Source: a virus
Strand: one strand, 5' to 3'
DNA length: 64,000 nucleotides
Virus record (IMG/VR): IMGVR_UViG_3300032675_000001
Span: 296,684-360,683 of that record
The notes beneath the pieces are model-generated. The model worked only from the letters and a program-made list of their open reading frames with translations, searched no databases and was not told the origin of the DNA. Both the position numbers and the translations under genes were made by a program. Positions 12,979-42,691 of this stretch are shown here, one piece after another. Each line of letters begins with the position of its first letter. Within the stretch, counting starts at the first letter, position 1.

Positions 12979-13143
12979 TTAACCATTCCAATGATGTATT
13001 GCGTTTGCGATGATAAAGAAGTTAGTTACAAAGGCTTGAAGGACCAAGACTGTGCGAACCCAAGCAACCTTGTCGGATTCTTTATCACAGTCACTGGCCT
13101 TTTCGCCAAGCGCCTTAAACCAAATACGCTTAAATGTAGTCAT
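12979..13143 (-). CDS. Small membrane protein, 54 aa
   Basis: Start at ATG 13143, inside the end of the AIG2-like gene. The ending DKVAWVRTVLVLQAFVTNFFIIANAIHHW combines a polar Asp-Lys turn with a membrane helix; similar small proteins occur in aquatic phages. Function unknown. Confidence 0.55.
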   Translation of the reverse strand: MTTFKRIWFKALGEKASDCDKESDKVAWVRTVLVLQAFVTNFFIIANAIHHWNG

Positions 13144-13561
13144 ATTCTCTTTTAAATCCCTCTGCGGTATAGATTTGTTCAACATCAAGACCATGTGCTT
13201 TATATCCTTCTTCCAGCATTTCTTGATAGTACATGTTAGGAGAAGAATAATGTACATATTCTCCAGTCATCTGATATACCATGGCCTCATGTTCTTTACC
13301 GTTCACTGTAACAGTGACATATTTCTTTCCGTAAAAGGAAGGGTAGCCTTCAAGGATGTCAAGTTCTTCCTCACATTCTGGAGTAATGTCCCACAACACA
13401 CATTGCGCAACGTCACCATAGCTGACTTCAACATCAGCTACTCCACGAAACACAAGACGGTGGTCCACAAGATCATACCTACCAATACTGACTGCATTAG
13501 GGCATCTCTGTGACATTTGATATATGTTGGTATTCATTCCATAAGCAAGCATTAAAGTCAA
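13130..13561 (-). CDS. AIG2/GGCT-like gamma-glutamyl cyclotransferase-fold protein
   Basis: This fold releases 5-oxoproline from gamma-glutamyl amides. The substrate-loop motif LAYGMNTN (usual form Y-G-S-N) is at the N-terminus and the catalytic Glu sits in LDILEGYPSFY (about residue 73). Length 143 aa is normal for a single domain. The TTG start has a well-spaced AGGAG; ATG 13552 is the alternative. Two more domains of this fold are fused in the large protein at 38.9-40.4 kb, so the phage carries three. Confidence 0.75.
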   Translation of the reverse strand: MTLMLAYGMNTNIYQMSQRCPNAVSIGRYDLVDHRLVFRGVADVEVSYGDVAQCVLWDITPECEEELDILEGYPSFYGKKYVTVTVNGKEHEAMVYQMTGEYVHYSSPNMYYQEMLEEGYKAHGLDVEQIYTAEGFKREYDYI

Positions 13562-32133: not shown

Positions 32134-33582
32134 TTATTTTTGAAAAAGTGAAAATAAATTCCCAGTGACATAGTTCTTATCTTGTCCAAACATACTATGT
32201 TGTAAATGCTTGATAATATCTGGGGTAAGGTGTCTTGCTCTCATTCCCCCACGAGGAAAAAGATGCACTTCTACTGGTTCATCGCCTTCAACCTTTTGAA
32301 TAGCCATCATGCGATTGCGCCCTTCATGACCACTGACTCTGGCATCTTTACTGAAGTCACCGTCTTCCCATTCTCGTGGAATATCTATGGTCAAAAAGGG
32401 TGAACCCAATGCTCCACCTTGTTCAATATGACCTGCAATGTGATCAACGCTTGTGGGATTGTTTAATCTGTGAGCAAGCTTTAAAAACATACTCGGTTTC
32501 ATCAAAACACGCAATCCCATGTAATCCACGTTAGCATTATATGGAACAGAACCAAGCCCGTTTTCGTTGTCTACTTTGTATTCATCAAGTTCTGATTCTT
32601 TTATGTCTTTTGGCATTGCATAAAAGATATGCTTACCTACAGCGGCAAGTTTTTTAGTTCCTTTTGCCCAATATGGATGAATATCTTTGGTGTGATAAAA
32701 GACTGCACCGTGTGTTGGGTCAGGAGCATGACCAGACATGATCTTCTTGGCAAGCTCATAGCTCTTGGCCCATAGCTTGTAATCAAGACCTTTGCCAGTG
32801 TTTTCAAGCTTCTTTAACCATGTATTGAAATCTTGACCACCGGGTGCTTTTCTGGACTTGATGATCTTATCAAGATGTTCCATTTCTTGTGCATATTTGT
32901 AGTTTGGATCGTTGTGGTTCCAGCAACTAAACTGACTTGGTTTTGTGGCAACACCAACAATACCTTGACCAAAACGTCTTGCGTGTGCCTTATCATTGGC
33001 GCGATTCTTAATGACATTACCGATTGCTAGCATACCATTTGCGCCTTGATCCCTTGCTTCTCCCCACATTGTGTGGGCAAGAATCTTAGTGGGGTCTTGG
33101 TGTACTGGTTGTGTTGCTGCTGGGAGATCAAAACGAACAACAGGATCAAACTGCTGCTGTTTATTGTGCATAGCCAATCCGCCTGCCGCCAAAGCCGCTG
33201 CGCCGCCTGCGGCTAGTGCACCCTTCTTAGCCCAATCGGGAAAAGCTTCATCAAGCGATTCATTCATACCTAAAGGAAGATTGGCAACATGCTGCAATGG
33301 AAGATTGACTAGTTTCAATGCACCACTCGCAAACTGTCTCCAGTAACCGGTATTATGAATATGCTGCATCATGTAATACAGATATCTTGCATCAAGAACA
33401 TCAGTAGCCGTTACCTTGATACCGATATTTTCTGGTGAATATTCCTTGGTTGGTGTGCCTACCGATTTGTCACTACCTTTGCGCTGAAGCCAGAAATCAG
33501 CATCAGGAAAGTTTGTCTTCACTGTTGCTAAATCTTTGAGCCTTACGCCAGCGGATTCTGTTATGAACTCTTTCGCTCTCAT
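32134..33582 (-). CDS. Capsid-targeted SleB-type cell-wall hydrolase fusion, 482 aa
   Basis: The ATG overlaps the previous stop (TAATG). The first residues, MRAKEFITESAG, fit a T4 capsid-targeting peptide with a gp21-like cleavage site (I-T-E before S-A). Next comes a domain with DADFWLQRKGSDKSVG and TDVLDARYLYYMM, resembling type I specificity-subunit-like phage domains, then an Ala-rich hydrophobic helix (about 130-150). The SleB/cell-wall hydrolase core is TMWGEARDQGANGMLAIGNVIKNRA (split here around residue 185), with the catalytic Glu of GEA. The C-terminal domain (from about 340) has GSPFLTIDIP and GHEGRNRMMAI, common in phage structural polyproteins. Likely injected with DNA. Confidence 0.7.
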   Translation of the reverse strand: MRAKEFITESAGVRLKDLATVKTNFPDADFWLQRKGSDKSVGTPTKEYSPENIGIKVTATDVLDARYLYYMMQHIHNTGYWRQFASGALKLVNLPLQHVANLPLGMNESLDEAFPDWAKKGALAAGGAAALAAGGLAMHNKQQQFDPVVRFDLPAATQPVHQDPTKILAHTMWGEARDQGANGMLAIGNVIKNRANDKAHARRFGQGIVGVATKPSQFSCWNHNDPNYKYAQEMEHLDKIIKSRKAPGGQDFNTWLKKLENTGKGLDYKLWAKSYELAKKIMSGHAPDPTHGAVFYHTKDIHPYWAKGTKKLAAVGKHIFYAMPKDIKESELDEYKVDNENGLGSVPYNANVDYMGLRVLMKPSMFLKLAHRLNNPTSVDHIAGHIEQGGALGSPFLTIDIPREWEDGDFSKDARVSGHEGRNRMMAIQKVEGDEPVEVHLFPRGGMRARHLTPDIIKHLQHSMFGQDKNYVTGNLFSLFQK

Positions 33583-35816
33583 TATCCAATCCGCTCTGCT
33601 CGTATATGTCGAGAATTCCAAGTTGGGTTTTCTCGTCTAGCGATATTTATTGCTTCTTCCGCACTTGAAGCAGTCACATTGGATATACCACTGGCGTCTC
33701 CTCTATGGACTCTCCATAACGCTGGTGCTGTTTCTGTATTTTCAGATGATGAAGTATTACCATTTTCTGCTTCTTCCCAGCGAGCATTAAATCGCATGAT
33801 CCAATTAATCTGAGCATCAGTTAGGTTTTCATAGTCTTGATCATGTGGGTCAACGTGAGGAAGACCTTGTTGATCGCACCATAGTTCATATTCACGAGTT
33901 AGTTGATCAATAGCTTGCGCTCTTGGTCCATCCTGTTGAGGAGCATATGCATTGACATCATCTGAAGGAGTAGGAGGTGTTTGGCGGCGACCGGGTTCGG
34001 CAACGTCAACAGAAATATTCTGTAGTGGCATAGTTCTCCACACGTGATTGCGAGCCGCCAGCCTATTATATGCCACTTCTGAATTGGGACCAGATGCGTA
34101 TGCAGGAGCAACTGAACCATCACGTGTCATAAATCTATATGTTGTTTCACCCTCGGCAGGCTCATCAAGAATGCCCTGTGGATCATTTTCACCAGATAGT
34201 ATCTTAGCTAGTTCATCGTTCGTTTTACGATTGTACTTCTTCTTTGCAAGAGCACCGGCAAGTTCTTCCTTATTAAGTTCACCGGCCATATATCTAGCAA
34301 ATAAACTCATTTCTGCCTTAGGGTCTTTTGGTTTAAGTAACTTATATAATCCCTTTAAGTATTCTTTACGATACTTCTGTGGATCACAAGCTGCATCAAG
34401 TGCTACGACAAATCTCAACACAGTATTTTCAATCTTACTAAAGTTAGAGTTTAACCAATCATTACCGGGACCACGAAACTCAACCCAGTTTTCTTTAGTA
34501 TTAATACTGGTGAACTTTCTGGTTGACCCATTATGAATAATCTTACTTGCTATTTCTTCCATATTACTGCGTAATTTTTCAAATAATCTTTCTGTTTCCT
34601 GTGGATTATCTTTTGCTTTATTTTTAATAATATCAAGTGCAGACTCACAGTAAGAGTTAGCTATACGACCAAACTGGTTAAGAACATACTGATCTCCGGA
34701 AAGAATAGCAAGCTTTACATAATCCAAGTTACTTTTACTATAGTTAGGAACACTTACGTTCATGTGTAAACCGCATGAACTATTAGTGTATGCACCAACG
34801 TCATCTGCCCATTCTTTAATCTTGGAGATATCATCAAACATTTCATCTACTGGCAGTGGAGGACTAATAAACTCTAATCCTGCCTCATCTGAACCATATG
34901 CTCTTAAACTAGAATCTGGTTCAATAGTATACCCATCAGATGTTCTGCGAGCACCGTGATATGATGAACTCCAGTTTACGCTGCGCCCGATGGCGTCTTC
35001 AAATCTGCTAGCGACTTCTTCAATGGATTCGCCGCCATTGTTGTTATATACTGGTTCAGGATCACTCCAGCGGGTCCATGCTAAATCATTATTACGGTTC
35101 ATTCGGTGATTATATACGTCATCCATATCATTGATACCGATGCTCTCTAGGAACTCTTCTTGATCAACCTCATCACGATCAAATCCGTATATGTATGGGC
35201 TATTTTCATCTGGGTCGGCTTCATCGTCTTCATCATAACTATAATAGTTTGGAATCATGTCGCCGTCTTTAAATGACTCGTATGCTTGATCGTAATAGTT
35301 GTAGCCAGCAGCATTGCCGGGTCTTTTCCATTCCTCATCGGCTACTTCTTCGTAATCTTCTTTAGTGGGAATACGATCACCCAATAGGTCTTCTGGTTTA
35401 TCTAGATAATCAGCAATATCTGATGGATCAGCATTTTTCTTAATCCAGTTTAAAAGATATTCCTTGCCTCTTTTTTCCCAATCTTTTTTGACATATGTTT
35501 CTAAATATTCATCAAACTTTTCTTCTAATACCCGTCTTAATTCGGCAATAGTGGATCGGGTATTGTGATCACGTTCATCAAAGAAATCAACAATGTCATC
35601 AATGCTTCTAGCAGGCTCATTTTCATCGTAACGTTCTGGGTCTTGGTAGTCTGGTTCATCATCCTCGGTGTTAACGTCAGGAACGATCATTTCAAACTCC
35701 ATACCAACCTTAGCATCAATCTGATTAGCCAGTTTTTTAAGGTTAGTAGGACTCATCTCCACTTCAAGGAGTTGTTGTTGTGCTTCGTATAGGTCAAGGA
35801 AATGTTTTGCTCTCAT
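33582..35816 (-). CDS. Capsid-targeted amidoligase-family protein A, 744 aa
   Basis: Start MRAKHFLDLYEAQQQLLEVE is nearly the same as in the next gene and fits a prohead-targeting peptide. The amidoligase (COOH-NH2 ligase, glutamine-synthetase-like) core is marked by KVGMEFEMIVPDV (metal Glu, about residue 40), GLEFISPPLP, CGLHMNVSVPNY and WVEFRGPGNDW with the phosphate-binding Arg. A long acidic insertion lies between the first motifs. The C-terminal 40 residues hold one Y/W-R-V...SAEEA-IA repeat. It may ligate amino groups to carboxylates on peptides or proteins; substrate unknown. Confidence 0.75.
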   Translation of the reverse strand: MRAKHFLDLYEAQQQLLEVEMSPTNLKKLANQIDAKVGMEFEMIVPDVNTEDDEPDYQDPERYDENEPARSIDDIVDFFDERDHNTRSTIAELRRVLEEKFDEYLETYVKKDWEKRGKEYLLNWIKKNADPSDIADYLDKPEDLLGDRIPTKEDYEEVADEEWKRPGNAAGYNYYDQAYESFKDGDMIPNYYSYDEDDEADPDENSPYIYGFDRDEVDQEEFLESIGINDMDDVYNHRMNRNNDLAWTRWSDPEPVYNNNGGESIEEVASRFEDAIGRSVNWSSSYHGARRTSDGYTIEPDSSLRAYGSDEAGLEFISPPLPVDEMFDDISKIKEWADDVGAYTNSSCGLHMNVSVPNYSKSNLDYVKLAILSGDQYVLNQFGRIANSYCESALDIIKNKAKDNPQETERLFEKLRSNMEEIASKIIHNGSTRKFTSINTKENWVEFRGPGNDWLNSNFSKIENTVLRFVVALDAACDPQKYRKEYLKGLYKLLKPKDPKAEMSLFARYMAGELNKEELAGALAKKKYNRKTNDELAKILSGENDPQGILDEPAEGETTYRFMTRDGSVAPAYASGPNSEVAYNRLAARNHVWRTMPLQNISVDVAEPGRRQTPPTPSDDVNAYAPQQDGPRAQAIDQLTREYELWCDQQGLPHVDPHDQDYENLTDAQINWIMRFNARWEEAENGNTSSSENTETAPALWRVHRGDASGISNVTASSAEEAINIARRENPTWNSRHIRAERIG

Positions 35817-35820
35817 TGAG

Positions 35821-35829
35821 GTATTTATC
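35821..35829 (-). promoter_or_regulatory. Late promoter abutting the amidoligase A start
   Basis: GATAAATAC with CTCA before the ATG at 35816; there is no room for a ribosome site. Confidence 0.6.
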
Positions 35830-35843
35830 AAACTTTAGGATTG

Positions 35844-38435
35844 TTATGATGAAACAGGACGAACCGCAAACACATCACGCGCCTGTGATGGTGTTAGCCC
35901 GTGGCTACCAAGATTTACATAATCACGCAATCTTACGATTGCATCATGCTCGCTTCTTGCCGGAAATACTGAACCTGGAACCGGCTGATTGGTTCTAGTG
36001 TCAATCAAATGATATGGTTTAGGTGCTTCTGCCAATCTTTGGTTCTGTCTTATAACATAACCTTCTGCATAACGTGGATCGAACTCCTGTCTAACCGCAG
36101 TTACAGACCCAGCAGGGAATTTTTCATAATCCAGTTTGGTAGCTATATCTGACGCTTCTTCTTCGGATTTAGCTACCACATAATCATACCCATTCATATT
36201 ATGAACACGATACATTTTAATGTCGGAAGGGTCAATGGGATTTGCGTCAATTTCTTCACGTTCTTTACGCTGACGAATCATGTCTTCTTGTGCTCTTTTG
36301 TATGCTTCAACACTGTTATCAGAAGGACTATCTTCATATACATGACATGCAATATTATTTTCACTAATGCTAGGTTCTATCTGCTTAGCAATAGCGGTTG
36401 CTTCATCAACACTTTTTGCAGCTATATAACCATTGAAGCGTTCTCTCCATATAACCGAGGCAAATTCTCTGACAATAAATATTTTTTCACGGCTTAGCCA
36501 CTTTTCAGCAAATGCAAGTTTTTCGTTTTGAAGATTCAATAAGTTTCTTGCATCCCTAAGTGATAACAATCTGTCCAGTTCAGAGACTCTAATATCGACC
36601 GCGCTAGATGGTATTTTTGCGAACGGAGATTCAATAGTTTTAACAATGTTCTCAGCCTCCTCTTCCGACTTAGCAAGAACAAGCATTACTTTACTATTAT
36701 ATTCTATCTTATATTCTTTAAGTTCACTATCAACATCAATATGATGTCTTTTAACGGTTACATACTGTACAGTATTTTTATTGAATATTTTTGGCTCATA
36801 TCCTTGTGCAGCCTTCAATGCCTCCGCACCATTATCTACTTGAGGAGTATTCTTGATGTAAACAGTGTGATGCTTTTCACCATCATCATAAATGACTTCC
36901 CAATCACCATCATCTACTTGATCATCATTAAGCCTAATAACACCATTTTTTGACAAACGATCTGCTTTTTTGAACATCAGTTCATCAGCATATCTTTGTT
37001 TAGTGATGTCACCAGCCATATATTTTGCAAACAAACTCGTTTGTTCACTTTTTTGAGTTGATGGAAGTGCTTTATACAATGCCTTCAAGTATTCTTTACG
37101 ATACTTTTGTGGATCACATGCGGCATCAAGTGCCACTACATATCTAAGCACGGTGTTTTTAAGTTTATCTATATTATCATCAAGCCAATTATTTCCAGGT
37201 GCGCGGATTTCAACCCATCCTGACTTAGTATTGACGCTTGTGTATTTGTCAGTGTTTCCGGAATGTAGGACCTTACTTGCTATTTCTTCCATTCCTGATC
37301 GTAGTTTCGTGAGTAATTGTTCTACCTTTTTTTGATCGGTTGCTCTATCTTTAATGATTTCAAGTGATGATTCTGCATAATACCATCCCGTTCTTCCGAA
37401 AATTTCAAGAACATGTTCATCACCAGACAATAATACAAGTTTTACCCAATCAAGTTTGTCGCGACTATAATTTGGCACGCTAATGTTTACGTGAAGACCA
37501 CAATCTGAATTGGTTTTGCAACCGTAATCTTTTGCCCATTCAATTATCTTGTCCATGTCATCAAACGTTTCCGTTATTCCCGGTGGTGGAGTTGGACTGA
37601 TCAATTCCAGCCCATCATATCCATCTATGGGATTTTTGTCACCGACACTAGAATCTCTTTCTAAAGAATATCCGTCTGGTCTTCTTGGAGCAGAGTGATA
37701 GCTTGTTCCAACATAAACTTTTTTTCCTAAAGCGGATGAAATTTCCTCACCAACTTCATCGATGGAAACATTCCCTTGAGTAGGATATGTCCAGTGTGGC
37801 CAAGTAATGTCTGCTCTTCTCAGATTACGAATAACATCCGACATGTTTCTGATACCAATGGAACGTAAAAAGTCTTGTTGACTTAAGTTAACATAATCAT
37901 ATCCATCCATAAACTCTTCACGGGCATCATCGTAATAAGAATCTTCCTCATCCCAAGACTTTTTTGCTGCTTCTTTATAGTCTTCTGGAGTTGGTTCATA
38001 TTCTTCTTCGTCGTTTACTTCTCTTTCCAAATATTCAGCAATGTCTTCATCTGATACGTTGTTTTTGATCCAGTAGTATAACTCTTGTTTACCATCGGAT
38101 GCCCAGATTTCAATTTTTTGTTCATCTGCCCATTCACGAAATCTTTCTTCAAGTTCTTCACGCAAGTCATTGATTTCACTTCTGCCATTATAATCACCAT
38201 CATGAAAGAAGTTACAAATGTCATCAATGTCATTTGCGCGTTCGTCGGCATCCCAATCTTCTTCCCGATCAGCATCCTCATCGTTTCCCTCTACATCAGG
38301 GACAAACATTTCATATTCAATGCCAACTTTAGCATCAACATTGCTAGCAAGCTTCTTTAGGTTTGAAGGAGACATTTCTACTTCAAATAGTTGTTGCTGT
38401 GCCTCATAAAGGTCAAGGAAGTGTTTTGCTCTCAC
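35844..38435 (-). CDS. Capsid-targeted amidoligase-family protein B, 863 aa
   Basis: Paralogue of protein A over residues 1-480: KVGIEYEMFVPDV, GLELISPTPP, CGLHVNISVPNY and WVEIRAPGNNW are all kept. The C-terminal 380 residues add four or five diverged units containing AKSEEEA-x-x-IA (VLAKSEEEAENIV, YIAAKSVDEATAIA, VVAKSEEEASDIA). GTG start, translation probably coupled to the Dps gene. The duplicated catalytic core with different tails suggests different substrates or positions inside the head. Confidence 0.75.
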   Translation of the reverse strand: MRAKHFLDLYEAQQQLFEVEMSPSNLKKLASNVDAKVGIEYEMFVPDVEGNDEDADREEDWDADERANDIDDICNFFHDGDYNGRSEINDLREELEERFREWADEQKIEIWASDGKQELYYWIKNNVSDEDIAEYLEREVNDEEEYEPTPEDYKEAAKKSWDEEDSYYDDAREEFMDGYDYVNLSQQDFLRSIGIRNMSDVIRNLRRADITWPHWTYPTQGNVSIDEVGEEISSALGKKVYVGTSYHSAPRRPDGYSLERDSSVGDKNPIDGYDGLELISPTPPPGITETFDDMDKIIEWAKDYGCKTNSDCGLHVNISVPNYSRDKLDWVKLVLLSGDEHVLEIFGRTGWYYAESSLEIIKDRATDQKKVEQLLTKLRSGMEEIASKVLHSGNTDKYTSVNTKSGWVEIRAPGNNWLDDNIDKLKNTVLRYVVALDAACDPQKYRKEYLKALYKALPSTQKSEQTSLFAKYMAGDITKQRYADELMFKKADRLSKNGVIRLNDDQVDDGDWEVIYDDGEKHHTVYIKNTPQVDNGAEALKAAQGYEPKIFNKNTVQYVTVKRHHIDVDSELKEYKIEYNSKVMLVLAKSEEEAENIVKTIESPFAKIPSSAVDIRVSELDRLLSLRDARNLLNLQNEKLAFAEKWLSREKIFIVREFASVIWRERFNGYIAAKSVDEATAIAKQIEPSISENNIACHVYEDSPSDNSVEAYKRAQEDMIRQRKEREEIDANPIDPSDIKMYRVHNMNGYDYVVAKSEEEASDIATKLDYEKFPAGSVTAVRQEFDPRYAEGYVIRQNQRLAEAPKPYHLIDTRTNQPVPGSVFPARSEHDAIVRLRDYVNLGSHGLTPSQARDVFAVRPVSS

Positions 38436-38438
38436 GTG

Positions 38439-38882
38439 TTATGCTCGCGAAGTTTTAAGAATTGAACGCAACATCCAGTTATGCTTACCATGAGCATCAA
38501 TGCGTTCTGCAATGAAGTTTGCAATACCTTGCTCATCCGCGTCTTCTGCAAGATGAAATGCTTCTTTCCACATTGCAAGTAATCTCTGATTATCTTCGTA
38601 GAGTTCTTGCATCATCAACTCTGCACGAGGAATCTTTATTTGGTCCTGTATCTGGCTTAACTCAGAAAAACGAACAAGGCTACCTGGAGCATATGAATCA
38701 AGTTGACGAATCATTTCGGCAGTACGATCAATAGAGTTATCATACACTTCTGAATATAGTTCATCAAGAAACTTGTGATATTGAGGGAAATCAGCGCCTT
38801 CAATATTCCAATGAAAGTTTTGCGTTTTGATTGAAAACGCATAAGATGTTGCTAATAGTGTTTTCAGTGCGTCAGCGAGCAT
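38439..38882 (-). CDS. dps: Dps/ferritin-like DNA-protection protein, 147 aa
   Basis: Four-helix ferritin-like fold: the N-terminal helix has SYAFSIKTQNFHWNIEGADFPQYHKFLDELY, with the His-Trp and the D-x3-E spacing of the Dps ferroxidase site, and the C-terminal helix has GKHNWMLRSIL. Length is typical. Dps binds DNA and oxidises Fe(II) with peroxide, protecting DNA. It sits in the late block between proteins with head-targeting peptides, but has no such peptide itself. Late promoter at 38.90 kb. Confidence 0.85.
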   Translation of the reverse strand: MLADALKTLLATSYAFSIKTQNFHWNIEGADFPQYHKFLDELYSEVYDNSIDRTAEMIRQLDSYAPGSLVRFSELSQIQDQIKIPRAELMMQELYEDNQRLLAMWKEAFHLAEDADEQGIANFIAERIDAHGKHNWMLRSILKTSRA

Positions 38883-38901
38883 TGATATAATCCTTATTGG
38901 A

Positions 38902-38910
38902 CTATTTATG
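38902..38910 (-). promoter_or_regulatory. Late promoter for the Dps gene
   Basis: CATAAATAG, 19 bases before the ATG, leaving space for the AAGGAT ribosome site. It lies in the C-terminal codons of the upstream gene. Confidence 0.55.
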
Positions 38911-40447
38911 CTTCCTCATTCACATCAACATACTTAATAGGCTTATGTGACATCGCTGCTGCCAATGCTCTGTGGTGTCCATCAATGATTCTATCACCTG
39001 CAAGCACTATTATTTGCTGGGAAAGATTAGGATTATTTTGATAATCAGATACTATAGCTTCCTGTTCAGGTTGCATTTTATAAAACAAATCTTCTAAATC
39101 ATCAACACCATATTGATTTGATAGTACCTGTTCCAACACAAATGGTTGAATGGTATGAACAGTAAATGGTATATCAAAGTCATTATCACCTACAAAGTTC
39201 CAAATCATTTCATCATGATCAGGATAAGCACCATCATAAATGTCTGATAGAGTTATAGTTTGGTTGCCTACACTTTCATATGTGCTGGCTAATGTTCTTC
39301 GCTGTCCACGACCATGATGCTTAGTATATTGATGTTCTTGCTCATATGTGGTTGGACCACCCACCATTGCTCCACCACTGTTACCTGCTGATCCACCACC
39401 TAACCCAGTGCTTACTGTTTCATTCTGGACATAGCTGTGCCCTCTACGTGCAGGGTCCCAATCACCATTATCATCGTCACTATCATCAACATCAAGATAG
39501 CTATTATTGCCCCATGTGTCATAATCCTGATCATCGTGATCATCTTGATAGCCATGGTGTTTATGATCATCAAGCATATCAAGTGCATCATATAGTTGAT
39601 GAAGCGGAACCCCAGCGTGAGAATATCCTATTTTGACCATTTGAATATATTGTCTTGATGGAACTGTTCCTTGCACCCGTCTAAGTGTATAAGGAGTCAT
39701 TACATAAACTTCTGCTACATATTTCTCGCCATCACAGTATACGGGATATGTTCTACGATCATATAGCTCTGGATACCCTTCAACCTGATCAAGTTGACTT
39801 ATAATACGTCTATCAACTTCCCATAAGCAGCCATAAACTTTACTACCGCTATGTGGTTCTACGTTTGCATATTGATACATTACATATTCAAAGTTGCGAA
39901 GTTCGGCAACTCCAATCAGATGAATACCTTCCATGTTATTTGGATCACACAGCATACCATAACTGAAATAGTATGTCGGAAGTCCCCCTGCCTCGTGTAG
40001 TTCTTGATTGCTAGAAACGTCTTTTGGTGCATTTTCTATCTGTTCAAGTGGAAGACCGTGTTCTGTATATCCTTCCTCACAACTTTCAACATACCATTCT
40101 GGTGTATCTGGTTTGTTTTTATGAGTAGGGTCCATGATATAAGTCATTGCTCTTACTGGACCATGTTCTGTGTCTATTTGGACTGGGACACGATTATATG
40201 CTTTATGCAATCCTTCATCATGATCCAACTCTTTTAGGTCTTTGGTATTGACTCTCCAAAGAATGCCGTAGCATTGTGTATCATCTTCATTTTCAAGATC
40301 AGCATAGTGACGGAATACAAGTTTAAAGTTCTTCAATACACCTTTGCCGAGCAGCTTGGCAGAAGGGCATCGTTCTTTCATGATATGAGTATTTGTGTTG
40401 TGACCATATGCAAAGTAGTTAATGGTTTCAACTTCATCTGCTCTCAC
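38906..40447 (-). CDS. Double AIG2/GGCT-like domain protein fused to ParB-like domain, 513 aa
   Basis: GTG start giving MRADEVETINYFAYGHNTN. Domain 1 (about 10-145) has FAYGHNTN and the catalytic Glu in LDHDEGLHKAY; domain 2 (about 160-300) has FSYGMLCDP and LDQVEGYPELY. A long Asp/His/Gly-rich linker follows. The C-terminal region (about 440-513) has a ParB/Srx-type motif, DRIIDGHHRALAAAMSH. It lies between amidoligase-family genes and a GNAT gene, all with MRA starts. Gamma-glutamyl cyclotransferase-type domains would remove or process gamma-glutamyl linkages that amidoligases make. Confidence 0.8.
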   Translation of the reverse strand: MRADEVETINYFAYGHNTNTHIMKERCPSAKLLGKGVLKNFKLVFRHYADLENEDDTQCYGILWRVNTKDLKELDHDEGLHKAYNRVPVQIDTEHGPVRAMTYIMDPTHKNKPDTPEWYVESCEEGYTEHGLPLEQIENAPKDVSSNQELHEAGGLPTYYFSYGMLCDPNNMEGIHLIGVAELRNFEYVMYQYANVEPHSGSKVYGCLWEVDRRIISQLDQVEGYPELYDRRTYPVYCDGEKYVAEVYVMTPYTLRRVQGTVPSRQYIQMVKIGYSHAGVPLHQLYDALDMLDDHKHHGYQDDHDDQDYDTWGNNSYLDVDDSDDDNGDWDPARRGHSYVQNETVSTGLGGGSAGNSGGAMVGGPTTYEQEHQYTKHHGRGQRRTLASTYESVGNQTITLSDIYDGAYPDHDEMIWNFVGDNDFDIPFTVHTIQPFVLEQVLSNQYGVDDLEDLFYKMQPEQEAIVSDYQNNPNLSQQIIVLAGDRIIDGHHRALAAAMSHKPIKYVDVNEEA

Positions 40448-40451
40448 GTGA

Positions 40452-40973
40452 TCAGCCCTTTGTCCACAATAACAAGTTATAGTTTCCACGACTGCTGGTC
40501 CAACTATCACCAGTCTTTTTGAAACCACCAAACTGCAGTAGTTTATTTATGGTAGTATTTTCTTCACGAGTAGTTGCGAATATTGGCGCATTAGTACTAC
40601 GAACAAGATTGCGGCACAAATATATGCCTACTCCTCTTGTACGATATTCTGATTTCACGAATGCATAACCGATTTCTAGGTTATAACGTCTTTCCAATTC
40701 TGGAACATTAGCTTCAATGAATACTTTGTGACGATAGACATTGATTGGATTTTTTAATGCAATAACGCCAACCGCCCTATCACCATCCATTGCATATGCA
40801 ATGCTCTCTGCATTTCTGAGATTCTTGTCTACAACGACCATATCAACTTCTGAACCTTCGGCAATCAACTGTGATAGTTGTGCCATTACATTGCGGCTAA
40901 TGTTACTCGCATTTCCGATATGATATTGAATAGTGGTTGTCTGATCTTCAAACAGGAACTCAAATGCTCTCAC
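40452..40973 (-). CDS. Capsid-targeted GNAT acetyltransferase, 173 aa
   Basis: GTG start. N-terminus MRAFEFLFEDQ is a short prohead-targeting type peptide. The acetyl-CoA motif is EIGYAFVKSEYRTRGVGIYL (about residues 97-116, R-x-x-G-x-G type), with LLQFGGFKKTGDSW near the C-terminus, typical of GNAT proteins. It may acetylate host or phage proteins or small molecules right after injection; the target is unknown. Confidence 0.75.
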   Translation of the reverse strand: MRAFEFLFEDQTTTIQYHIGNASNISRNVMAQLSQLIAEGSEVDMVVVDKNLRNAESIAYAMDGDRAVGVIALKNPINVYRHKVFIEANVPELERRYNLEIGYAFVKSEYRTRGVGIYLCRNLVRSTNAPIFATTREENTTINKLLQFGGFKKTGDSWTSSRGNYNLLLWTKG

Positions 40974-42018
40974 CAGTTATTCCTTTTAGAATAGCACTTT
41001 CCTTTTTCATATGAGTTCCAGCCATCTTTGGTTTGAACTTGCGATATGATTGGCCAGCATAACCGCCTTGACCCATACCGCCGCCATATGAAGTGTCTTC
41101 TTCAAGTTCTCCATCTGCTTGACTGCCATCACAGTCATAATCACAGTTAACATCTCCACAATAGTCGCACTCAATCCATCCTACACCATGTCTGTGTTCA
41201 TCGTCATGTTGTTTTGAGAATGCATCTTTGTATTTGTCGTATTCTGTTTTTTTCTTTTTAAACGGAACCACATCGCCTTCATCCAACTCGCCAGCAGGAT
41301 GGGCGCGATAAGAAGTTGCGTTGTCAAAACTATCAAACTCATTGAGTTTTCCAGCAGGCTTTATTTTTACTTGACGCCATCCACCTTCTTGATAACCGAC
41401 TGCTGGGTAATCTGGATTCTCACTGATGGCACCTCTAAATGATCTATCCTTTAGACCACCATAAGGATTCACTGCTGGGGTTTTTTCTGCTGCAAAACGC
41501 ATATCAGTGTCTTCACCGAAATAAAGATTCTTCATTTCTTCTTCGGCGGCTGCGATAGTGTTTAGTGTATTAGCAAGTTGCTTGACGTTGTATGCAGCAG
41601 CTTTGAATGAACCTTTACTAATGTCATTTGCTAATGCAGTGGCTTCACCATGTGCTTTCTTCTTTAATCGTGATAGACTCATTGTTCCGGCACCACCAAG
41701 AATAGCAACTTCTGGATCGTCCTTATCATGACCTACAATAACGCCTTCTTTTACAGGAACACAAATATCCTTGCCGTCTTTGGTTCCAGCATATCTTTTG
41801 CCTTTCCAGCAACGCTTGCCGTCTGCACCCTTTTTGGCTTCTGTCTCATGCATTTCCTGCTTGATTTCAATCTTTTTGTTAGGGAACTTTACTCGCAACC
41901 TGTCTGCATCTTTTCTTGCTTCGGCTTGGTTGGCATATTTGGTTGAAGGCTTTCCATCAATATAGATAACCGAAACACTTTCAGATTCGTCAATAAGCCC
42001 CTTGATGATTGAACTCAT
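40960..42018 (-). CDS. Putative internal head protein, 352 aa
   Basis: Starts MSSIIKGLIDESESV, again like a cleavable targeting peptide. The region KRCWKGKRYAGTKDGKDICVPVKE (split, about residue 70) has a C-W-K-G motif also seen in the nucleotidyltransferase at 44.4 kb. A helical middle part (ALANDISKGSFKAAAYNVKQ) and a Cys-rich cluster near residue 280 (CDYCGDVNCDYDCDG) follow. Probably virion-internal; function unknown. Confidence 0.6.
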   Translation of the reverse strand: MSSIIKGLIDESESVSVIYIDGKPSTKYANQAEARKDADRLRVKFPNKKIEIKQEMHETEAKKGADGKRCWKGKRYAGTKDGKDICVPVKEGVIVGHDKDDPEVAILGGAGTMSLSRLKKKAHGEATALANDISKGSFKAAAYNVKQLANTLNTIAAAEEEMKNLYFGEDTDMRFAAEKTPAVNPYGGLKDRSFRGAISENPDYPAVGYQEGGWRQVKIKPAGKLNEFDSFDNATSYRAHPAGELDEGDVVPFKKKKTEYDKYKDAFSKQHDDEHRHGVGWIECDYCGDVNCDYDCDGSQADGELEEDTSYGGGMGQGGYAGQSYRKFKPKMAGTHMKKESAILKGITGESI

Positions 42019-42019
42019 T

Positions 42020-42691
42020 TTACTTACCCTTTTTGTGGTTTCTGTTGTTTAAATATCCACGTTTGTTGGCAGTTGCCCAAGCAATATCAGTTGCCTTGTC
42101 TTTTGACTTTCCTGCTTCACGTTCTGACTTGGCAATGTGCTTTACCATGCGATCAACTTTGGCACCTTCAAACGCTACACCACCAGCGATAGTTCCACCA
42201 TTTGGAATAGATTCAAAAGGCTTACCCGCATCCTGTTGACTTGCAAGATACTGCATTGTAGATGACATCATAGCCTTGATGCCACCGATCTTTTCTGATA
42301 CCCATTCAGGGAACTGATCTTTGTCAGAAAGTCTCTTTTCTAGTTCTGATGCTAGACGAACAATAGTGCGAAGGCTGTTTTTAAGGGTTTCACCTTCGTG
42401 TTCAGCTTTATCTGGATCATGAGGAACAAAGCCCGTTCTAGTATTACGGCCTTGACCGGGAACTACGATAATGTCTTCTTCATCAAGATGTGCTTCTGAA
42501 ACTTTCTTGGACTCACTGATAGAGTTGGCATAAGGACCCTTCTTCTTAGCCTTGCCCTTCATAACTTTAGATGCAGGTTGAAGTCCAGGAACATCTACAG
42601 ATTCCTTGGTTCTCTTTTGTGTAGTCATTGGCATCGCAACTGTTGCAACTGATCCTGCACACGTAGATTCGAAGATATCACTAATTTTCAT
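42020..42691 (-). CDS. Putative internal head protein with FESTCAGSVA start, 223 aa
   Basis: MKISDIFESTCAGSVATV at the N-terminus is common in T4-like aquatic phages and fits a targeting peptide. The C-terminal segment KVDRMVKHIAKSEREAGKSK, then DIAWATANKRGYLNNRN, is a conserved-looking basic helical module. Late promoter and good AAGGAT site. Likely virion-associated. Confidence 0.65.
   Translation of the reverse strand: MKISDIFESTCAGSVATVAMPMTTQKRTKESVDVPGLQPASKVMKGKAKKKGPYANSISESKKVSEAHLDEEDIIVVPGQGRNTRTGFVPHDPDKAEHEGETLKNSLRTIVRLASELEKRLSDKDQFPEWVSEKIGGIKAMMSSTMQYLASQQDAGKPFESIPNGGTIAGGVAFEGAKVDRMVKHIAKSEREAGKSKDKATDIAWATANKRGYLNNRNHKKGK

Follow-up and report, generated by a model that had tools for sequence, protein, structure and literature searches.

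A cassette of amidoligase and GGCT genes with predicted head-targeting leaders in a jumbo T4-like phage

Genes of the cassette and their assignments

The window, i.e. the whole stretch of 64,000 nucleotides analysed here, covered positions 296684-360683 of a 360,683-base virus record and thus the end of that record; its GC content was 41%. The source is a jumbo T4-like phage. A gp23-type major capsid protein and a gp21-type (gp21-family) prohead protease were encoded elsewhere in the record, outside the window, and the capsid protein shared 64-67% identity with its counterparts in PA5oct, Vibrio phage 2.275.O and GAP32-type jumbo phages. No DNA-level match was found among named phages for the 24-kb stretch around the cassette. 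A preliminary description had delimited a packaged module of amidoligases, GGCT-like domains and a GNAT to positions 33582-40973. The set reached further, as the leader-bearing hydrolase belonged to it, and a Dps-like gene lay inside (Table 1). Five cassette genes displayed dN/dS ratios of 0.12-0.24 against their orthologues in the related contig L025, which indicated purifying selection, with dS near saturation.

Table 1. Features of the cassette and its surroundings (window positions; a slash marks the predicted cleavage site)
Feature	Position	Strand	Remarks
Third GGCT, stand-alone, without leader	13130..13561	-	Pfam GGACT E 3e-7; PHROG 2520 E 2e-26
Cell wall hydrolase (Hydrolase_2)	32134..33582	-	Leader MRAKEFITE/S; Pfam E 6e-18; one-base overlap with the end of amidoligase A
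Amidoligase A	33582..35816	-	744 aa; start ATG 35816, upstream TTG 35831 possible; GS-fold core ~aa 30-460 plus C-terminal repeat region
Leader of amidoligase A	35784..35816	-	MRAKHFLDLYE/A; T4 CTS-like; predicted gp21-type L-x-E site
Amidoligase B	35844..38435	-	863 aa; GTG start; paralogue of A with extra C-terminal repeats
Leader of amidoligase B	38403..38435	-	MRAKHFLDLYE/A; genome-wide leader pattern count
Dps/ferritin-like protein, without leader	38439..38882	-	147 aa; Pfam Ferritin E 2e-21
GGCT-GGCT-(ParB-like?) protein	38906..40447	-	513 aa; likely start GTG 40447; Pfam GGACT E 3e-27, two stretches
Constant C-terminal module, ParB-like by motif only	38909..39421	-	E[TS][VI]STG.GGGSAG..GG.MVGGPTTYEQE ... 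DGHHRALAA
GGCT domain 2	39572..39970	-	YFSYGML ... LDQVEGYPELYDR
GGCT domain 1	40028..40420	-	YFAYGHN ... LDHDEG; nearest to human GGCT
Putative GNAT	40452..40973	-	Leader MRAFEFLFE/D; Pfam Acetyltransf_1 E 0.006, below curated cut-off
Conserved cassette neighbour	40960..42018	-	CWKG..YAGTK..KD motif; syntenic in most relatives
Conserved neighbour with leader	42020..42691	-	MKISDIFE/S; leader count and synteny in relatives

The two amidoligases of the preliminary description were recovered as a pair of paralogues. Amidoligase A matched Pfam Amidoligase_2 (PF12224) with E 6e-10 (2e-10 for the core alone), scoring 39.8 bits against a curated cut-off of 22, and PHROG 2443 ('amidoligase enzyme', E 8e-6). 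Amidoligase B gave no Pfam match on its own sequence; it was assigned through its identity to A (50-52% over ~540 aa, with the same active-site residues) and through its L025 orthologue, which passed the Amidoligase_2 cut-off (E 1e-7). A search of the phage's own genome with PF12224 returned nothing despite the good hmmscan score of amidoligase A, so that this null result does not denote absence. Searching PDB sequences with the amidoligase profile gave no match, and no relatives were found in a search of plasmids.

Ten residues (D301, S303, E315, H351, N353, S355, K368, R384, R448 and G451) were invariant in 24 amidoligase relatives with identities down to ~22%, while G38, E40, E42 and E299 were nearly so. 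The loss of ATP- or metal-binding residues from both proteins had been named beforehand as an observation that would speak against the assignment; glutamine synthetase (GS)-like residues of this kind (GxExE, downstream acidic residues, H-x-N and an arginine) were kept in A and B as well as across the 24 relatives. Mapped onto GS by motif and not by superposition, they look as one would expect for the ATP/metal site of a GS fold. The AF2 model of amidoligase A (pLDDT 80) agreed with the proposed fold: 50 of the 50 PDB matches listed belonged to the glutamine synthetase family (best E 4e-3, prob 0.95, TM-scores low), including gamma-glutamylmethylamide and naphthylamine GS-type enzymes, which act on small amines, and phage amidoligases were retrieved from BFVD (top match E 1e-38). 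Both proteins are probably catalytically active. The C-terminal parts of amidoligase B (35844-36700) and of its equivalents in L021 and L029 resembled repeats of a ~70-aa unit (Y.V ... EA..IA..), whose number differed between the paralogues.

Among the GGCT domains, domain 1 matched human GGCT (PDB 2pn7) with E 1e-9, the YFAYG motif and the catalytic glutamate being aligned, and domain 2 was of the same type as the GGCT fused to an amidoligase in two relatives (L033 and L065). The third GGCT displayed its catalytic glutamate within LDILEGYPSFY. This residue was invariant in seven out of seven aligned phage GGCT sequences and present in all three domains of the window; profile match and catalytic residue thus both placed them in GGCT/AIG2 (PF06094), as had been proposed for the two domains sharing one gene and for the separate one at 13.1 kb. 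Peptidoglycan was rejected as a direct GGCT substrate, since the glutamate of the stem peptide has no free alpha-amine.

The remaining assignments of the preliminary description fared less well. That of a GNAT is plausible: the protein displayed an R-T-R-G-V-G motif of acetyl-CoA type (R-x-x-G-x-G) and was 75% identical to an orthologue in L025, the Pfam match falling below its cut-off and the AF2 model (pLDDT 37) being too poor for a fold search. The ParB-like domain was not upheld, as the C-terminal module had no profile support in Pfam, NCBIfam, PADLOC or PDB and showed the DGHHRA motif only. PADLOC gave weak matches only, the top one (E 1.5e-5) involving a helical stretch in amidoligase A, and a reading as defence system was rejected on these grounds.

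Leaders and head targeting

Short N-terminal leaders of T4 type were carried by both amidoligases, the putative GNAT, the cell wall hydrolase and the conserved neighbour gene at 42020-42691; their sequences included MRAKEFITE and MRAKHFLDLYEA. The LYEAQQ stretch of the amidoligase A leader was conserved in L021, L025, L028 and L029. Outside the window, leader-bearing genes encoded a superoxide dismutase, a nucleotidase, a kinase and a protein with weak similarity to a head protein family. The pattern M[KR]x(2-4)[FIL][ILF]x(0-3)E[ASDGTEN] with an L/I-x-E site occurred in 14 genes genome-wide, whereas 1000 shuffles of the N-termini averaged 0.74 and reached five at most; this excess is somewhat flattered, as these genes were already known when the pattern was drawn up. 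The T4 IPII/IPIII leader MKTYQEFIAE/A, taken from the T4 record, fitted the pattern independently (compare MRAKEFITE/S of the hydrolase). In T4, packaging requires no more of IPIII than its 10 N-terminal residues, and cleavage by gp21 takes place behind L/I-x-E (PMC9026906).

The capsid protein of the phage displayed the same type of cleavage site near its N-terminus (KKQLLAE/SSAG). Both elements of T4-type capsid targeting, a short N-terminal leader with an L/I-x-E site and a gp21 homologue, were hence found in this phage, and by analogy the leader-bearing proteins are likely to be packaged into its head. The leaders named in the preliminary description were confirmed on amidoligases A and B and on the putative GNAT but not on the GGCT protein, whose N-terminus from GTG 40447 (MRADEVETINYFAYG) comprised no full leader, only MRADEVET. 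Amidoligase and GGCT activities may therefore not travel together.

The leader type did not exceed background in CBB, PA5oct, Vibrio 2.275.O and Atu_ph07, as searched with the DNA pattern, so that published virion proteomes give no support. Upstream of leader genes, GATAAATA was found in four out of 11 cases, against 23 out of 442 other genes (P 0.0025); as one of several motifs tried, it is only suggestive as evidence for late promoters. The T4 late promoter consensus TATAAATA preceded none of the 11 leader genes and was not enriched.

Further leader-like N-termini occurred elsewhere in the genome. A protein kinase at 179673-180245 (outside the window; L009/L010) displayed the leader MRISELLTES; it was related to phrog_15752 (host transcription inhibitor kinase), weakly to Kinase-PolyVal, and a homologous kinase-like domain is joined to the ParB-like module in L045. 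An Fe/Mn superoxide dismutase (269540-270094) and a 5'-deoxyribonucleotidase (272521-273066), both within L014, started with MREYITLLEAK and MKILDLFEEA, respectively, and by these N-termini are possible further head cargo.

The cassette slot in related phages

The whole cassette was kept in order in L025 and two near-identical contigs. The Hydrolase_2 gene adjoined the amidoligase in L021, L025, L028 and L029, and the Dps-like gene was close to it in most relatives. In the hydrolase orthologue of L025 (L025:12646-14847), Hydrolase_2 was separated from the leader by a GNAT insertion (Pfam E 2e-4) together with a ParB-like DGNHRA stretch, an architecture that looks polyvalent.

Other parts of the slot varied. 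The constant C-terminal module ([TS][VI]STG linker and DGHHRA) was 54-91% identical in four relatives, behind different N-terminal domains. It followed two GGCT domains in the window and L025, leader and amidoligase in L032, leader and kinase-like domain in L045, another multi-part region in L029 and the leader alone in L051. The hydrolase domain likewise alternated between Hydrolase_2 and GH19. A glutamate directly before [TS][VI]STG, at the start of the module, was invariant in the protein of the window (38906-40447) and its relatives, and in L051 the cleavage glutamate of the leader stood exactly at this position. Insertion of N-terminal domains may have cost the module a leader of its own, or cleavage may still take place there.

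GGCT occurred in the slot of four out of 10 distinct amidoligase-bearing phages, the other six having an amidoligase without GGCT (window included in these counts). Among ~15 distinct phages with the slot, again with the window, GGCT was present in four, always with an amidoligase, and ~5 had neither; by counts alone this co-occurrence was not significant. Stronger evidence for a tie is provided by L033 and L065, in which amidoligase and GGCT formed one polypeptide (E 5e-7 and 2e-13 in L033, 6e-9 and 7e-13 in L065). The amidoligase was absent from the slot in L045, L062, L066 and L068. Leader-bearing proteins with an RWCTA-type domain (L045:8106-9395) recurred in the slot of these same four contigs. 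Taken as a whole, the slot is a swappable cargo locus in related phages, accommodating kinase, GH19 lysozyme, amidoligase or GGCT.

Interpretation and comparison with known systems

The pairing extended beyond these relatives. Amidoligase and GGCT genes were adjacent in Heliusvirales gut phages (Firmicutes phages) and are reported to be so in Arthrobacter cluster AL phages (PMC5513430); in LUZ24-like phages they are described near each other, within a gene cluster that also comprises GATase and ATP-grasp genes (PMC3890496). In Clostridium prophages they lie a few genes apart (PMC11318856). Adjacency or clustering in unrelated phages shows the pairing to be general and already visible in annotations. 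GATase_6 gave no match in the present genome, unlike in LUZ24-like phages; COOH-NH2_lig gave none either, nor did it in control genomes, so that its absence is not proven.

Several cassette enzymes bear a T4-type head-targeting tag, so the phage probably delivers amide chemistry into bacteria along with its DNA. Late in infection, the leader-bearing enzymes would be made and drawn into the prohead, where the gp21-type protease would trim their leaders after L/I-x-E, and they would enter the next host cell with the DNA. There, the hydrolase may help at the cell wall, and the amidoligases, on host ATP, would join a carboxylate to an amine on a host protein or a small molecule, the donor being most likely the gamma-carboxyl of glutamate. 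The GGCT domains, encoded in the same operon and synthesised anew or packaged in some other way, would remove or recycle gamma-glutamyl amides, releasing 5-oxoproline. Late expression, packaging, gp21 cleavage, the glutamate donor, the opposition on one bond and action in the host are all inferred. As a whole, a head-targeted cargo cassette whose virion-delivered amidoligases make gamma-glutamyl-type amides that GGCT removes or recycles is the reading we narrowly favour. That amidoligase and GGCT share a substrate is an even call, and a host protein is a rather doubtful candidate for the target. The most far-reaching version, a reversible system in which packaged amidoligases attach gamma-glutamyl-type tags to host proteins upon entry and the GGCT of the phage takes them off again, is slightly more doubtful still.

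The preliminary description had seen one fixed system that adds and removes tags. The functional tie between the two enzymes was borne out by the fusions in L033 and L065 and by the pairing in Heliusvirales, Arthrobacter and LUZ24-like phages; the fixed system was not, and a rotating slot of delivered effectors describes the locus better, GGCT being found in only four of the 10 amidoligase-bearing phages. Pushed further, such rotation could mean that there is no shared pathway at all: amidoligase, GGCT, kinase, GNAT and lysozymes would each act on the host independently, much like polyvalent proteins, and the first two would merely be useful cargo that occurs together. The exchange of domains before the constant module (GGCT pair, amidoligase, kinase-like or leader alone), the replacement of Hydrolase_2 by GH19 and the slots with amidoligase and without GGCT all fit this account, whereas two fusions of exactly amidoligase and GGCT, and their independent pairing in unrelated phages, speak against it; its probability is well below one half.

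Small-molecule chemistry is less probable. Here the amidoligase would glutamylate a diffusible amine, such as a polyamine or a metabolite with a toxic or defensive role, GGCT would reverse or complete the reaction and no protein would be tagged. GGCT and GGACT family members do act on small gamma-glutamyl amines, and the fold neighbours of amidoligase A include enzymes with such substrates; the head targeting and the large accessory repeats of the amidoligases point instead to a macromolecular or localised target, and few packaged copies would turn over little metabolite. Least probable by far is virion maturation, in which the enzymes would crosslink or modify head or internal proteins and not the host. 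Leaders would indeed concentrate them in the prohead, and the Dps-like and conserved neighbour genes lie alongside, but ATP supply within the head is limited and the cassette is variable, even lacking the amidoligase in L045, L062, L066 and L068, unlike essential head assembly genes.

Under the favoured reading of virion-delivered amide chemistry, two enzyme classes would join the effectors that phages may deliver. Amidoligase_2 enzymes are common among phages, and no established donor, acceptor or tested substrate was found for them in the literature consulted; leaders, GGCT fusions and rotating slot point to where and when to look for a product, namely in virions and during the earliest minutes of an infection. 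No description of a head-targeted, fused and rotating amidoligase-GGCT form was found in the same literature. The words amidoligase and cyclotransferase are absent from the main text of the polyvalent-protein survey (PMC5512222), and a jumbo-phage survey has amidoligases in its reference list only and does not mention cyclotransferases (PMC7824862). The cassette is real and coherent, and its novelty resides in the combination, not in the parts.

In fold class and in the key residues of their catalytic core, the amidoligases described here agree with glutamine synthetase or gamma-glutamylmethylamide synthetase, from which they differ by a large helical insert (aa ~70-240), C-terminal repeats and far distant sequences. 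The T4 internal proteins (IPI-III, Alt) share the leader M-[KR]-x-x-(x)-E-F-I-x-E-[AS], a gp21-type protease and the gp23 capsid; compared with these proteins and the ART of Alt, the cargo here is composed of amidoligase, GNAT, hydrolase, kinase and others, and its packaging is predicted. Polyvalent proteins (Iyer et al. 2017, PMC5512222) are likewise multi-domain, with lysozyme, kinase, GNAT and ParB-like domains, and are predicted to be delivered with DNA; they combine several disparate domains per polypeptide, whereas those of the window are simpler. The Heliusvirales, Arthrobacter AL and LUZ24-like pairs comprise the same two families, Amidoligase_2 (PF12224) and GGCT/AIG2, side by side or clustered. 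As far as the passages on these genes go, they are single small genes for which no leader is mentioned, whereas in the cassette of the window the set is duplicated, enlarged, fused in relatives and equipped with predicted head-targeting leaders.
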